From Saprospiraceae bacterium (GTDB taxonomy: Bacteria > Bacteroidota > Bacteroidia > Chitinophagales > Saprospiraceae): DNA of 64,000 nt. The position numbers were made by a program, and so were the translations under genes. A model generated the notes under the pieces. It was given only the letters and a program-made list of their open reading frames with translations, was not told the DNA's origin and did no database searches. The DNA is taken from NCBI GenBank assembly GCA_028280415.1, contig JANQLV010000047.1, positions 62,001 through 126,000 of the forward strand, in the 5' to 3' direction. How positions within the stretch are numbered: the first letter of the stretch is position 1; each line of letters starts with the position of its first letter. Shown piece by piece: positions 46,553 to 54,039 of the stretch.

Positions 46553-47095
46553 ATGGAAGTTACTACGCAAACACTAGGCATCGGCTCCAGGGTAAAACAC
46601 CCCGCCTATGGAGAAGGAGTCGTTATTCGATTACACAAAGTGGCTTATGAGATTTGTTTTATGACCTATGGCATCAAGGATGTGGGTCGTAATTATGAAA
46701 AACTGGAGATTATTGAAGCAATAGAGGCACAAGAGGTCGTTTCTTTTACGCAAGCGGAAGAATCTCTGATAAAAATCCTCAAGCATTGGTCGGATGTCAG
46801 CGAAGCTGTCGAATTGGGGGATAAATGGAATGATGGCTTGATGATACTCAAACCCGGAGATGAAAATCTGAAATCAAAAGAGATTCCAATTGAGAGTTTT
46901 TTTCATAAAATTGTAATGGTACGGGATAGAATCAGAGTGATGGAACAAAGAATTAATTCAAGTGTAAATCTAAGCGATGAAGAAAAAGTAAATCTCCAGC
47001 AATACATTACCAGAATTTATGGTAGCTTGACCACTTTTAATGTATTATTCAAATATAAAGAAGATTATTTCGTTGGCGAAAAAAGCAAATCCTAG
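46553..47095 (+). CDS. Conserved unknown protein with SH3/Tudor-like N-terminal segment
   Basis: A 180-residue soluble protein with no signal peptide. The first about 50 residues (GSRVKHPAYGEGVVIRL, then YGIKDVGRNYEKLEII) resemble the small barrel segments found in the C terminus of UvrD/PcrA helicases and in CarD-like proteins, where they bind RNA polymerase or nucleic acid. The rest is helical and acidic with a HWSDVSEAVELGDKWNDG segment. I do not recognise a named family. Proteins of this pattern appear widely conserved in this phylum, so it is likely a real gene. It stands alone between the hydrolase and the TlpA-like lipoprotein. Confidence 0.65.
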   Translation: MEVTTQTLGIGSRVKHPAYGEGVVIRLHKVAYEICFMTYGIKDVGRNYEKLEIIEAIEAQEVVSFTQAEESLIKILKHWSDVSEAVELGDKWNDGLMILKPGDENLKSKEIPIESFFHKIVMVRDRIRVMEQRINSSVNLSDEEKVNLQQYITRIYGSLTTFNVLFKYKEDYFVGEKSKS

Positions 47096-47217: not shown

Positions 47218-48555
47218 ATGCATCGGTATTATCCTTTGATTTTATTTCTGGCGCTTACTTTATTTTTTAGCAGTTGTCTTACTTTTGAACATCAATATTC
47301 TCTTATCCCTCCCGGGAAATGGCGTGCCGTACTGGAATTGAGCCCTTCCGGAATTCCGGTACAAACCGGCAAACGTGCCAAAGATAAAATTGTGCAAAGT
47401 ATCGATGAAGTGACCGAAGGTGAGTTACCTTTTAATTTTGAAGTTATTTATACGGATGATACTACATTTTATATCGAAATCATAAATGGCCCGGAACGAA
47501 TAAAGGTCTCCGATATTGAAACCTGGCACAGTCGTGAAACCAATGATGACTCTATCCGCATCAATTTTCCGGTCTACGGCACCTATATCAAAGCTGGTTT
47601 TGAAGATGATAAGATTGAGGGAGAGTGGTTTGTTCCCTATCGTGGCTCCGATTATAAAATTCCGTTTAGAGCCCGTTTTGGCAAAGGTCATCGATTTACT
47701 CAACTAAAGAAAACACCGATCACTGATATCAGTGGAAAATGGGAAACCACATTTCAGGATGATTCGCCTTATAAAGCCATCGGCGAATTCCAACAGGAAG
47801 GAAATCACCTGACCGGTACTTTTGTCACTGAAACCGGAGATTACCGATATCTGGAAGGCAGTGTTCAGCATGATAAACTATATCTTTCCTGCTTTGATGG
47901 TTCGCACGCTTTTCTCTTCGAAGCAAAGGTCATGAAAGACAGCACACTTCTGGGCTCTTTTCAATCCGGTGCCCATTATAAAACAATTTGGAACGCCTTC
48001 CGTAATGATAATTTTGACTTAGGTGATCCCGATACTTTGACCTATCTTAAAGAAGGATACGAGCGAATTGCTTTTGAATTTGAAAATACAGAGGGGAATA
48101 TGGTTAGTCTGGATGATGAACGATATCAGAATAAGGTGAAAATTGTACAAATTATGGGTACCTGGTGTCCCAATTGCCGGGATGAGACTACTTTCCTCGT
48201 AGACTATCTCAAAAAAAATCAGACCCAGGATTTGGAAGTAATCGCTATTGGTTTTGAAAGATACCGGGAAAAGGAGAAATCCATGCAGGCATTATTAAAT
48301 TATAAAAAGAATTTTGGAATGGAATATGAGGTTTTATTGGGCGGATATTACGATAAAAAAGAAGCCGCCGAAACACTGCCAATGCTCAATCATATCCTGT
48401 CCTACCCTACTATGATTTTTATAGATCGCGACAATCAGGTACGGCGTATTCATACTGGTTTTTCCGGTCCTGCAACTAGTGATTATAAAGCCTTTGTATC
48501 GGATTTCGAACAGTATCTGGAGCAGCTGTTAAATGAACAAAACCAACTTAACTAA
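47218..48555 (+). CDS. TlpA-like thioredoxin-fold lipoprotein
   Basis: A 445-residue predicted lipoprotein with lipobox FSSC (Cys21). The middle (about 25-270) is beta-rich and resembles a lipocalin-like/redoxin-preceding domain found in this group (GKWRAVLELSPSG, then ISGKWETTFQ). The C-terminal part (about 285-440) is a thioredoxin fold with redox motif CPNC (about 317-320, in IMGTWCPNCRDETTF), and the cis-proline is in LSYPTMIFID. It should act as a periplasmic thiol oxidoreductase. The proline in the CxxC motif differs from the WCGPC of the gene at 29882, suggesting a different redox potential. Confidence 0.85.
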   Translation: MHRYYPLILFLALTLFFSSCLTFEHQYSLIPPGKWRAVLELSPSGIPVQTGKRAKDKIVQSIDEVTEGELPFNFEVIYTDDTTFYIEIINGPERIKVSDIETWHSRETNDDSIRINFPVYGTYIKAGFEDDKIEGEWFVPYRGSDYKIPFRARFGKGHRFTQLKKTPITDISGKWETTFQDDSPYKAIGEFQQEGNHLTGTFVTETGDYRYLEGSVQHDKLYLSCFDGSHAFLFEAKVMKDSTLLGSFQSGAHYKTIWNAFRNDNFDLGDPDTLTYLKEGYERIAFEFENTEGNMVSLDDERYQNKVKIVQIMGTWCPNCRDETTFLVDYLKKNQTQDLEVIAIGFERYREKEKSMQALLNYKKNFGMEYEVLLGGYYDKKEAAETLPMLNHILSYPTMIFIDRDNQVRRIHTGFSGPATSDYKAFVSDFEQYLEQLLNEQNQLN

Positions 48556-48630: not shown

Positions 48631-51555
48631 ATGCCAGCTAATCTGTACATCGCTTTTTGTGAAGACAATCAATCTGTAGCAAATGAAATTAGTAAGAAAC
48701 TAAGCCCCTCAGGGTTTAAATTCGAATTACTCAGCTCAAAAACAGTAGGTGATAATTTGGAAGGGCTTACTTATTTAATTGCTCGTACCAAGGGCCCGGG
48801 AATGTTATTACTAAGCGATAATTTTCTCAAGGATGAGCGGTGTATGATCAATATGCTGAGCTTTTTACAAAACTCCGCTGTTGCCGAAAAAATGCAAATT
48901 GTAGTTATTGACGGGCAATATCAGAACGAAACAGTCGAGACGGCTTTTGACCGGGTCAGCAATGTTATTCAATATATGAATTACTGGCAGGAAAAATACC
49001 TTGAAATGCGCAAGCAAAAGCGATCCCTTGATTCCGCTAGCGAAACAAGCCTCAATGACCGGCTTCAAAGAGTAAAGGATATATCTAGTGAAATTGGAGA
49101 TTTTCTACGCCTGGTTCGCAATAAGGATTTCTGGACTCAGGATCAGTTTGTTTATAATAATTATGAGGTTTTCTTTAAAAAGTTTGGCAACAAATCATTG
49201 CATGATAATTTTACCAAGTCTGCAAAAACAGTTGCTCCAACAGAGACCAAAGCAAGTTCAGCACCTCCTGCGATGCCTACCCCGGAAGCTCCGACGGTTT
49301 CCGGAAAAGAAACCACACCTGAAGTACTATCGATCAATGATCGCTTTGCTAAAAAACCTTCAGTAGCAAAAGAAGTACCTCCCCCCACTCCATCAAAAGT
49401 AGTTCCCCCCCCCGAACCCAAACCAGAACCGGTGATGGAAAAAACAAAAATGACCGAAGAAAGCCAAAAAGTAATTACGGTCAATGAAATGTTTGAAAAG
49501 ACTGAATCTGATTCTTCTTCAGAAAAGAATAAATCCTTATCTCTTGTCGAACAAGCTATCCAAGCGGCAAATCGAATTAAAAAAATCCATGATGAACAAG
49601 CTCCCAAAGAGGAAGAAGAGATTGAAGAGGTACTTGCAGAAGTTGAAAACTTTGATGTTTCAGATACCTTAGCCATAAAACCTGAATTGGAGAATCCCGA
49701 TCTGGAAAAGGATAATCTGGAATCCCAGAAAGCCCTGGAATCTGTTTTTAAAAATGATGCAGTCGAAGAAATTTCGGAGGATGAAGTTATAGAAGAGCTG
49801 GACATCCCAATGGAAGATGAAGCTTTAAGTCCTGAAATGGATACAGAAGAAGCATTCTCAAACACAATGGGCGAGATGGAAAACTTTTACGAAGAAGAAG
49901 ATGATGATGATATAGACGTTATGGAAGGTCTGGAAATTGAAGATGATGACGAGGAAGAAATTGAAGAAGAGTTTGAAGAAATCTATTCTGATGAAGAAAT
50001 CGAAGATATAGAAGAAGAGATTGAAATTGAAGATGTCGTTTTTCCGGAGGATGTTCCTGGAGTAGATTTAACAGAACACATTAATGCAGCTCAAAGCCTT
50101 CTCAAAAAAGGAGCAGTTACAGAAGGAGTTCAAATGTTTGAAGGACTACTTCAACAACATCCGGAAGATGCAGCACTCCGTTTTGCCTATGCCATAGCAC
50201 TTTGGCAGGAAGTGCATAAACCTAAACTAGCGATTCAGCAGTTGGAAAGGACAATCAAGATTGATTCCGATTTTGTACCGGCTTACAGGGCTTTAGGAGA
50301 ACTGGCAGAGCAAAACAATGATTTCTTGCTCGCTAAAGGTTACTTCGAGAAAGTTATTTACCTGAATCCGGATGAGTCGGGTATTTATTATAAACTAGGT
50401 CTTATCACGGCGGGATTTTATGCCGAAAAACCAAAACTTGCCGCGAAATACTTCAAAAAAGCTATTCAACAAGAGCCCAACAAGGAAGATGCTTACTATC
50501 GGCTGGGATTACTGCAAAGTGAGTTTTTAGAAAAAGACAAAAAAGCTTTAGATAATTTCCATAAAACACTGGAAATCAACCCTGTTCACCCTTTTGCCAA
50601 TTATGATATTGCGCTATTATATCATAAGATGGGGGATCAGAAAAATGCAGCAGTTTACTACAAAAAAGCCTGGACCATCAATCCTGAAATTAAAACCAGT
50701 GAAAACGATAAAGCATTTTTTTATGAAGAGCCAGTTGCGGACTTAAGTTCGGAGACTGCTACTGTTCAGATGCATAAGCCCCTTTATGATAATGATAAAA
50801 TAATTCTCATTACAGGGGCTACTTCCGGAATTGGCCGGGCTACCGCGGAAATATTTGCTTCACATGGCTTTAGGATAATCATTACAGGGCGACGCGTTGA
50901 AAGATTGAAAATATTGAAAACTTTTTTTGAAGGCAAATACAATACTTCTGTAAAAACTTTACAGTTTGATGTCCGAAACATTGATGCTGTAAAATCTATA
51001 ATCAACAACCTGGAAGAAGAGTGGCAAAATATCGATGTTCTAATTAATAATGCTGGATTAGCCAAAGGCTTTGCCCCTGTGCACGAAGGGGATATTGATC
51101 ACTGGGAAACGATGATTGACACCAATATCAAAGGATTGCTTTATTTGACCAGAGCAGTAAGTCCGTCTATGGTGAAGCGGCGTTCCGGTCAGATTATAAA
51201 TGTCTGTTCTACAGCTGGCAAGGAAGTCTATCCCAATGGCAATGTTTATTGCGCCACCAAGTACGCAGTCGATGCTCTAACCAAAGGAATGCGCCTCGAT
51301 TTATATAAGCACAACATACGAGTTGGTCAGGTCAGTCCGGCCCATGTTGAAGAAACGGAATTTGCCAGAGTGAGATTTGAAGATGAAGAAAAAGCAAAAA
51401 TCTACGAAGATTTCCAGCCTTTGAAATCAAGCGACGTAGCAGATGCCATTTTCTATATGGTGAATACTCCAGCACATGTTAATGTCCAGGATATTGTTTT
51501 GATGGGACGTCAACAGGCAAACAGTACGAATATTGATCGTTCGGGCAGAGATTAA
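48631..51555 (+). CDS. Fusion protein: TIR-like domain, TPR region and short-chain dehydrogenase
   Basis: The ATG at 48631 gives 974 residues. Residues 1-150 read like a TIR-type Rossmann-like domain (NLYIAFCEDNQSVANEISKK, LLLSDNFLKDERC), but the glutamate used for NAD cleavage in active TIRs appears replaced by Asn. A charged, proline-rich and then acidic linker follows (about 205-475), then TPR repeats (about 480-700) and a complete SDR enzyme (about 715-974). The SDR has TGATSGIG, NNAG and the active-site YCATK. The SDR part matches the YdfG-like NADP-dependent 3-hydroxyacid dehydrogenase group and starts with a possible internal ATG at 50770. The TIR call is tentative; the TPR and SDR are firm. 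Confidence 0.8.
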   Translation: MPANLYIAFCEDNQSVANEISKKLSPSGFKFELLSSKTVGDNLEGLTYLIARTKGPGMLLLSDNFLKDERCMINMLSFLQNSAVAEKMQIVVIDGQYQNETVETAFDRVSNVIQYMNYWQEKYLEMRKQKRSLDSASETSLNDRLQRVKDISSEIGDFLRLVRNKDFWTQDQFVYNNYEVFFKKFGNKSLHDNFTKSAKTVAPTETKASSAPPAMPTPEAPTVSGKETTPEVLSINDRFAKKPSVAKEVPPPTPSKVVPPPEPKPEPVMEKTKMTEESQKVITVNEMFEKTESDSSSEKNKSLSLVEQAIQAANRIKKIHDEQAPKEEEEIEEVLAEVENFDVSDTLAIKPELENPDLEKDNLESQKALESVFKNDAVEEISEDEVIEELDIPMEDEALSPEMDTEEAFSNTMGEMENFYEEEDDDDIDVMEGLEIEDDDEEEIEEEFEEIYSDEEIEDIEEEIEIEDVVFPEDVPGVDLTEHINAAQSLLKKGAVTEGVQMFEGLLQQHPEDAALRFAYAIALWQEVHKPKLAIQQLERTIKIDSDFVPAYRALGELAEQNNDFLLAKGYFEKVIYLNPDESGIYYKLGLITAGFYAEKPKLAAKYFKKAIQQEPNKEDAYYRLGLLQSEFLEKDKKALDNFHKTLEINPVHPFANYDIALLYHKMGDQKNAAVYYKKAWTINPEIKTSENDKAFFYEEPVADLSSETATVQMHKPLYDNDKIILITGATSGIGRATAEIFASHGFRIIITGRRVERLKILKTFFEGKYNTSVKTLQFDVRNIDAVKSIINNLEEEWQNIDVLINNAGLAKGFAPVHEGDIDHWETMIDTNIKGLLYLTRAVSPSMVKRRSGQIINVCSTAGKEVYPNGNVYCATKYAVDALTKGMRLDLYKHNIRVGQVSPAHVEETEFARVRFEDEEKAKIYEDFQPLKSSDVADAIFYMVNTPAHVNVQDIVLMGRQQANSTNIDRSGRD

Positions 51556-51596: not shown

Positions 51597-54026
51597 TTAC
51601 AATTTAATCAGACTTTCAACATAAATTAACGCTTCGGTTTGGAATATGACCTTGTAGAATCCGGAGCTCAAATGCTTAAGATCCAGATCGGTATCTCCAC
51701 TAATGTTTTGCTGGAATACCAGCCTGCCCGTAACATCTTTTATATGTAGCATCAGATTACTTTCCATTGTGGTAGAAATCCGTAGGGTTTCACTTACCGG
51801 ATTTGGAAAAATCCTGATCCCCGATTCATCAGGATCATTCACACTTATTATCAAATCTTCCCCATCGCAATTTTCATCAATCCCATTATTGGGAATCTCT
51901 TCTGCTCCGGGATTAACAGAAGCTTCCATATCGTCACAATCGACAAATAAATCAAAACCATCTCCATCAAAATCGAAGGTCGAAAGCATTCTATTCTCAG
52001 TTGTATTGGTAATAATAGGTGGGTTTAAATCAAAATAAATACCTGCTGTATTATTGATCTCTGTCATTTCCGGCAAGCCGTCTTTGGTTTTAATTCGATA
52101 ATTCACATATCCCTGGCTTCCCTCGAAATCAGAGGTACTATCCGGCAAAAAGATATTTCGGAATTCGAAGGTCAAATATTGATTCTCTTCCATAAAGGTA
52201 GATAAAACCTCTTCATGACTACTACTGATTACCTGAAAAGTCGTTGGATCAAGATTAGCATCCAGCGTATCCCTTATCACAACATCATATGCTTCGGCAT
52301 TTCCTGTGTTTTGAAAACGAATCGTATAAATCAAATCTTCTTCGAATAAGGTGTAACCATTCATTCGACTTGGATTGATCAGCTTATCATTCGGATCATA
52401 AGAGCATTCAACTATCCCCCGATAGGCATTGGGTGTTGAAGTAGAGAAACCATTTTGATCTTCATAATCCATATAACTCAAAAAGGCTAAATTACCCCCA
52501 ATCTCAAAATCAGGAGGGCCGGGTATTCTCACTCTGATCTGCTTAAGAACCCCTTGTCCTGGAAACAGTTCTTCATAGGACCAGCCATAAGTATGAGGCG
52601 GAATAATAGTATCTGGCGGATCAATAAATTCTACCTCTAAATTATTCGGATCCGCCTCAAAATATAGATAACCATCCGCCACGGTGTTCCCAAGGTTTTT
52701 GCCCAACACATCAAATGTAATAAACTCCAGGCAACGGAAATTAGGCGAATTAATGGTAGTAATAAATTGAGAGTTTAGAACAGTGGGATAAAGACCGAAG
52801 TAAACCGTATCGATAAGGTTATTCAAACTTAGATTTACATTATAAGAAGTCATGGAATTAGTCGGAGCCCAGTCTTCAGATAAGAAATCATTGAGACTTA
52901 TTGTATAATCTCCTAATTCCAAAATTTTATACCCGCCATTAGCACTATTTGAGTAAGAGGTATAATTTCCGGGATTGATGGATACATAAAAACTTGGATC
53001 ACTTGGAAAAAAGTCTTCCTGATCTAATATTCCATCCTGATCAGCATCATAAAAAAGAAAATAATACAAGGCCCCAAAGATATCATCACAGGTATCTAAA
53101 ATTTCAGAATCAGAATTACATCCCCCTGCATTATCCTGAATTTGTATATCAGTAGTTTGTTGATCCAGTAAGAAACAAATAGCAGGAATGGAACATTCAC
53201 TCAACAAAGGATTCTCAGAAATATGGAGTATATCTCCCGAAATTTCTGATACATTGGATAGTGCATTCAAATTTGTAAGAGCAGGATTTTCTTTTATATA
53301 AACGTCACCAATTATTGTATGCAAATTATTTAAACCTTCAAAATCGTTTACCTGTGTAGAATTAACGGAAAGCCCCCCAATATGTTCTAAACTCTCTAAT
53401 CCACTAAAACTGCTTAAATTTTCCGTGGGTAGCAGGAGGTTTCCACCTACAAACTCAAGACTATTCAGGCCTTCGAAGTTTTCGATCAGCGAAAACGCAA
53501 TAGTGAGGTTTCCATCAACGTATTTTAAATTTTCCAGCCCTTCATAATTAATAAGCGTTGAATCATAGGTAACCCTGAAATTTCCCCCAATACGATTCAA
53601 ATTGTTTAAGTGACTAAAATCAGCAATTGATGTCCCCTCATCAATTTGCAATAAATTGCCAACATATTTCAAATTGTCCAGGCCTTTAAAGCTCGTTAAA
53701 CTATTATTACTAAGGTAAATACCTCCATAAATACTATCCAGATTTTCCAGGCCTTCAAAATTATCCAGTGAATTATTATAATCGACAGCCAAAGTACCTT
53801 TAATTACTTCTACCGATGAAAGTCCTGTTAGATCGAGATTAGGTTCCCCCAGGTTACTAAAAACCACAGTGCCCAATATCTCCGTACAACCCGGATTCAA
53901 AATGGCAAAACTATCAATTTGTCCCTGCGTATTAAATACTATTCCGTCGGGCAAGCAAGACTGAGCAAGTATATTCCAATTGAGCAACAGGAATCCTGCC
54001 AGAAGAGCGTAAGTTTTAATTTTCAT
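51597..54026 (-). CDS. T9SS-exported leucine-rich/L-domain protein with MopE-like metal motif
   Basis: The ATG at 54026 gives 809 residues. A signal peptide (ends ILAQ) is followed by an LRR-like receptor L-domain region (about 40-290, with repeated LxNLxxIxGxLxIxxN). A DUF7619-type conserved repeat domain follows (about 540-690, with [13 protein letters not shown] and [20 protein letters not shown]). Then come a MopE-like putative metal-binding motif ([33 protein letters not shown]) and a T9SS C-terminal domain ([14 protein letters not shown]). It would be exported to the surface. It follows the next gene on the minus strand after 13 bases, so the two form an operon. Confidence 0.87.
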
Positions 54027-54039
54027 AAATTTCAAATTA

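Follow-up and report, generated by a model that had tools for sequence, protein, structure and literature searches.

Bacterial TIR domains are mostly discussed as NAD-consuming enzymes of defence or virulence. In a survey of TIR domains, more than 70% had a glutamate between strands C and D, a residue needed for NADase activity (PMC7075850), and the same glutamate was required by all enzymatic TIRs examined in a second study (PMC10022894). Adaptor TIRs act through assembly rather than catalysis (PMC7075850, PMC8110528). The short-chain dehydrogenase (SDR) YdfG is an NADP+-dependent enzyme with broad specificity on 3-hydroxy acids, as stated in the passage of PMC10881976 that cites Fujisawa 2003. 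TIR-TPR proteins and YdfG enzymes are each already known, and our search of the open-licence literature found no description of a TIR-TPR-SDR protein.

Here we describe such a protein from Saprospiraceae bacterium. The window is the whole 64,000-nt stretch that was analysed, part of contig JANQLV010000047.1 (GCA_028280415.1), and coordinates refer to it. A first reading, made from the sequence only, had proposed that a TIR-like domain, TPRs and an SDR share one 974-residue chain. They do: a single open frame carries all three parts, as identified by Pfam and NCBIfam models and by a family profile.

Gene layout and the dehydrogenase domain

46553..47095, + strand: second conserved neighbour, 180 aa, without a Pfam match (60 of 106 loci, some genomes counted twice)
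47218..48555, + strand: conserved upstream neighbour, a TlpA/ResA-like thiol-disulfide oxidoreductase with a lipoprotein-like signal, 445 aa
48631..51555, + strand: TIR-TPR-SDR fusion gene, 974 aa, uninterrupted frame from ATG 48631 to stop 51555
48631..49230, + strand: TIR-like domain with helical extension, residues 1-200 (TIR_2, MyD88 profile match, AlphaFold)
48850..48852, + strand: codon of N74, at the site of the TIR NADase glutamate, C71+3 (alignment of 77 members)
48973..49023, + strand: Y115-R131 (YMNYWQEKYLEMRKQKR), the best-conserved block of the N-domain (alignment of 77 members)
49243..50058, + strand: disordered linker, proline-rich then acidic, residues 205-476 (pLDDT <50 over most of it)
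50068..50730, + strand: TPR array, residues 480-700 (Pfam TPR models; helical repeats, pLDDT >90)
50740..50784, + strand: short disordered TPR-SDR linker that includes ATG 50770 (pLDDT <50)
50794..51525, + strand: YdfG-type short-chain dehydrogenase domain, residues 722-965 (NF007829, E 1.6e-71; 3asu, E 1.7e-59)

The full-length AlphaFold model has three confident modules, at about residues 1-200, 480-700 and 720-970, mostly with pLDDT >90. Between them, pLDDT falls below 50 at 205-301, 323-450, 452-476 and 704-718, and the overall pTM of 0.39 is what one would expect for folded modules joined by flexible segments. The proline-rich, acidic linker of the sequence-only reading is confirmed and is modelled as disordered, with pLDDT <50 for most of 205-476, and Pfam and NCBIfam matches at about 484-700 confirm the TPR part. 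The downstream gene is convergent (51597-54035, - strand) and encodes a T9SS-sorted protein with Recep_L, DUF7619 and a MopE-type metal-binding motif.

The suggestion that a separate short enzyme could be made from the ATG at 50770 found no support. Such an ATG is present in the window gene, but the matching stretch contains one in only 4 of 44 members, which rules out the internal start as a conserved feature. We also rejected a linker motif, NDRF/NEMF, that recurs in the window protein and is found in 1 member. The TPR-SDR segment is heptad-like in some members and could form a coiled coil there.

The SDR part is motif-complete, as first read: the classical SDR motifs and the S-Y-K residues are all present in the window protein. 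Its best NCBIfam model is YdfG (NF007829, E 1.6e-71), and among solved structures it is closest to PDB 3asu (E 1.7e-59), with an alignment that covers nearly all of the SDR part. Its score of 240.6 bits stays below the equivalog cut-off of 411 bits; by its sequence, the domain is a YdfG relative and not a proven YdfG. Among 44 members, S860, K877, R754-R755, NNAG and GxxxGIG are invariant, and Y873 is present in 43. The GRR that follows strand 2 is invariant, in keeping with NADP(H), and since the SDR motifs are intact, we infer that the domain is an active NADP(H)-dependent 3-hydroxy-acid dehydrogenase.

The TIR-like domain and its glutamate position

Recognition of the N-domain as a TIR depends on the use of the whole family. 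Taken alone, the window domain matches TIR_2 with E=0.078, below the cut-off, and phmmer found no useful match for it in the PDB. In contrast, 22 of 24 family members match TIR_2 (best E 2.7e-7), and a profile of the N-domain family finds the TIR of MyD88 as the closest solved TIR (E ~6e-6). The AlphaFold model of the N-domain (pLDDT 94) has a flavodoxin/TIR-type fold, so a Rossmann-like fold, on which the earlier TIR assignment had been made to depend, is predicted. Judged by secondary structure, its first four strands and their helices follow the TIR order; at the expected place of the fifth strand, which was not seen, there is a long helical hairpin (109-132, 135-164). In Foldseek, TIR structures are among the top hits with probabilities of 0.98-1.00 (TIR-STING, flax L6 and the RPP1 TIR at 0.99-1.00), though with E values of only ~1e-3 and TM scores of 0.38-0.49, and receiver domains come next. 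We therefore regard the N-domain as a divergent TIR whose C-terminal half is unusual, an assignment from profiles and models that is firm at the family level and weak for the window sequence alone. A Pfam match to G1_gp67_C (E 2e-5) occurs in 1 of 24 members only and was taken as a chance match. Elsewhere in the genome, outside the window, at least eight further proteins match TIR_2 (L199-L204), and the one checked (L203) keeps the glutamate motif.

As the sequence-only reading had suspected, the position of the NADase glutamate is occupied by asparagine: it is N74, three residues past C71. Among 77 homologues the residue here is G, Q, N, E, R, D or another, and glutamate occurs in 10. Nine other N-domain positions are invariant in the same 77 members (N64, F106, Y115, N117, W119, Q120, Y123, R127 and S152). 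TIR relatives that have the same helical extension but other partners keep the glutamate (C-M-x-E) and form a clade separate from the SDR-linked TIRs (SH-aLRT 99). The window TIR thus probably lacks the usual NADase catalysis, judging from the alignment.

Could the domain nonetheless be an active NADase, a cyclic-ADPR signalling or defence TIR fused to an SDR by happenstance? Glutamate does occur in those 10 members, seven of which fall in one subclade where NADase activity may therefore be possible, and there are weak matches to ThsB in 4 of 24 members. However, the other 67 members, including the window protein, are without it, and PADLOC returned no match for the window protein. The locus also differs from a Thoeris-type layout, in which a ThsB-like TIR has a defence effector as its partner; here the neighbours are the TlpA-like oxidoreductase and the 180 aa protein. 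The gene is usually single-copy, and its locus is conserved and flanked by genes unrelated to defence, unlike patchy defence islands. Altogether, we consider an active NADase or defence TIR very improbable.

In close pairs the median dN/dS is 0.037 for the TIR, 0.05 for the TPRs, 0.033 for the SDR and ~0.19 for the linkers, all rough values given the high synonymous distances in many pairs. These values show strong purifying selection on all three folded parts, with the TIR as constrained as the dehydrogenase, which suggests that the TIR has been retained for a purpose other than the usual NADase mechanism. One such use would be that of a sensor-regulator, in which the TIR would bind, but not cleave, NAD(P)(H) or an ADP-ribose product and would tune the dehydrogenase to the redox or stress state of the cell via the TPR arm. 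The constraint on the TIR would suit this, as would the nucleotide-binding fold of enzymatic TIRs and the use of NADP(H) by the SDR. However, direct coupling would be hard across a disordered TIR-TPR linker that spans 27 to 378 residues in 89 members (median 188 aa, 29% D+E), we identified no nucleotide-contact residue in the TIR, and fused and split forms coexist, as described below. We regard a sensor-regulator as rather unlikely.

Distribution, probable fission and absence of the TIR-TPR block

The sequence-only reading had called for a search for the same domain order in other Saprospiria. Our scan of genome contigs kept 80 loci. Complete TIR-TPR-SDR ORFs, 800-1259 aa long and from other Saprospiraceae, account for 61 of them, and contig ends truncate most of the rest. 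Carriers include the cultured Phaeodactylibacter luteus, P. xiamenensis and Flavilitoribacter nigricans. The N-domain has a match in 145 of 248 Saprospiraceae genomes (73 of 112 genera), usually as one copy. Seven of these genomes show no more than weak matches to other TIR proteins, and without them the count is 138 genomes and ~68 of the 112 genera. The SDR, at E <=1e-60, reaches 99 of the 112 genera. Beyond the family the N-domain is nearly absent: 295 sampled genomes of the class yielded 4 weak matches, to other TIR proteins.

Some members are truncated where a contig ends, and a run of N interrupts one and a frameshift another, as might be expected if the fusion were an artefact of assembly or annotation, or if two genes had been read as one. 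The apparent splits in G003 and G024 are contig ends, and those at L091 (a frameshift in one MAG) and L141 (the run of N) are likewise not biological. The artefact reading is refuted by independent genomes, since the 61 complete ORFs include those of cultured species and single-contig genomes such as G088, and we give it practically no weight.

True separation does occur. A stop between the TPR and SDR parts in relatives had been named as evidence against the fusion; among the genera examined, it was found only in g71, which does not count against the fusion for the family as a whole. In the three g71 genomes the TIR-TPR frame ends in a stop and the SDR frame begins ~10-15 bp later. The g71 SDRs nest among fused members in the SDR tree, with modest support, so the split appears to be a later fission. 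Ten SDR-only genomes form one group in the same tree (SH-aLRT 94), and no N-domain was found elsewhere in these genomes at E 1e-5. Where members of the family have the SDR only, the TlpA-like gene in most cases lies directly 5' of it, which indicates that the TIR-TPR block is simply missing there. Conversely, one genome (G128) has at the same locus (L113, 5992-8511) an 843 aa TIR-TPR protein without an SDR, which ends instead in a short tail rich in lysine and glutamate; the best SDR elsewhere in that genome is only 36% identical. The SDR-only clade and G128 together imply that neither half is strictly dependent on its partner. The locus is one in which the TIR-TPR block is present or absent between genes that otherwise lie side by side.

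The surroundings are conserved as well. Of 106 loci, 95 have a TlpA/ResA-like oxidoreductase (~443 aa), which nearly always lies immediately upstream, and 60 have a protein of ~177 aa before it, with some genomes counted twice in both figures. The 180 aa protein of the window is 73% identical to its P. xiamenensis counterpart. This pair (46553-47095 and 47218-48555 in the window) precedes the SDR gene family-wide, with or without the TIR-TPR block, and neither gene was found near the SDR in 18 genomes from other orders.

These variants bear on whether the covalent link matters. TIR-TPR could be a functional unit of its own, its link to the SDR a by-product of operon position with little function; G128, the separate genes of g71 and the absence of the block from the SDR-only clade would all fit. 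However, the fusion persists across much of the family, in 61 complete ORFs, and the split genus still has both genes adjacent, 10-15 bp apart. We find such independence improbable.

Proposed role and comparison with known systems

An assembly or signalling role, as first suggested, remains the likeliest reading. In the form that we favour, by a modest lean, a non-catalytic TIR and a TPR scaffold position or assemble a dehydrogenase that is single-copy and vertically kept in Saprospiraceae. The C-terminal YdfG-type SDR would catalyse NADP(H)-dependent 3-hydroxy-acid dehydrogenation, and the long, disordered acidic linker would tether it to the TPR array and to a TIR-derived domain now independent of the NADase glutamate. 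TIR and TPRs would then provide scaffolding, through self-association or partner binding, and bring the dehydrogenase into a specific complex, perhaps in parallel to adaptor TIRs such as MyD88, which work by assembly and not by catalysis.

Several lines of evidence argue for this scaffold. There are 61 complete fused ORFs, and dN/dS is low in the three folded parts relative to the linkers. The glutamate site varies while N64, Y115, N117, W119, Q120, Y123 and R127 do not, and glutamate is kept in the separate clade of TIRs with other partners. By profile, the closest solved TIR is that of MyD88, an adaptor. In the three g71 genomes the split TIR-TPR gene still lies directly 5' of the SDR gene. 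The SDR active-site and GRR residues are conserved, and the three confident modules are joined by flexible linkers. The scaffold reading is weakened by the glutamate in 10 of 77 members, by the ten SDR-only genomes that do without the arm and by G128, which does without the SDR. More broadly, and more tentatively, since we hold it at somewhat less than even, a TIR lineage may have given up its usual catalytic residue and joined core metabolism, with the arm organising a dehydrogenase in most Saprospiraceae genera, a housekeeping and non-immune use. The family offers a bacterial test of whether a TIR can be maintained purely for protein assembly, and natural variants in which the arm is fused, split off or absent, or in which the TIR bears glutamate, allow comparison.

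How does the protein compare with its closest described relatives? With YdfG (NF007829; PDB 3asu), the SDR part has in common TGxxxGIG, GRR, NNAG, S-Y-K and TEFxxVRF. However, 3asu is a stand-alone enzyme of 248 aa, whereas the window SDR carries a 700-residue arm and scores below the equivalog cut-off. MyD88 is the best solved profile match of the TIR, and its C+3 position, by alignment, is also not glutamate; in contrast to MyD88, the window protein has no death domain, has TPRs and an SDR, and shows four strands and a helical hairpin in its model. The actinobacterial Group 6 TIR-TPR proteins (PMC7075850), compared by domain order alone, are likewise large, with an N-terminal TIR and TPRs, but belong to another phylum, with no SDR reported.

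Related too are Bacteroidota TIRs with the helical extension (L153-L156, L159-L162), which match the family profile along almost the full domain, the YW segment included. Their partners are a Roco-EAD11 with LRR (L153), a dynamin-like GTPase (L161/L162) or AlbA (L160), and others have a tail with what looks like a membrane segment (L154-L156, L159). These TIRs with other partners keep the glutamate and form their own clade, whereas the SDR-linked TIRs mostly lack it. Across much of this family, the TIRs are nearly always single-copy, sit at a conserved locus, are strongly constrained, mostly lack the glutamate and are joined to a metabolic enzyme.
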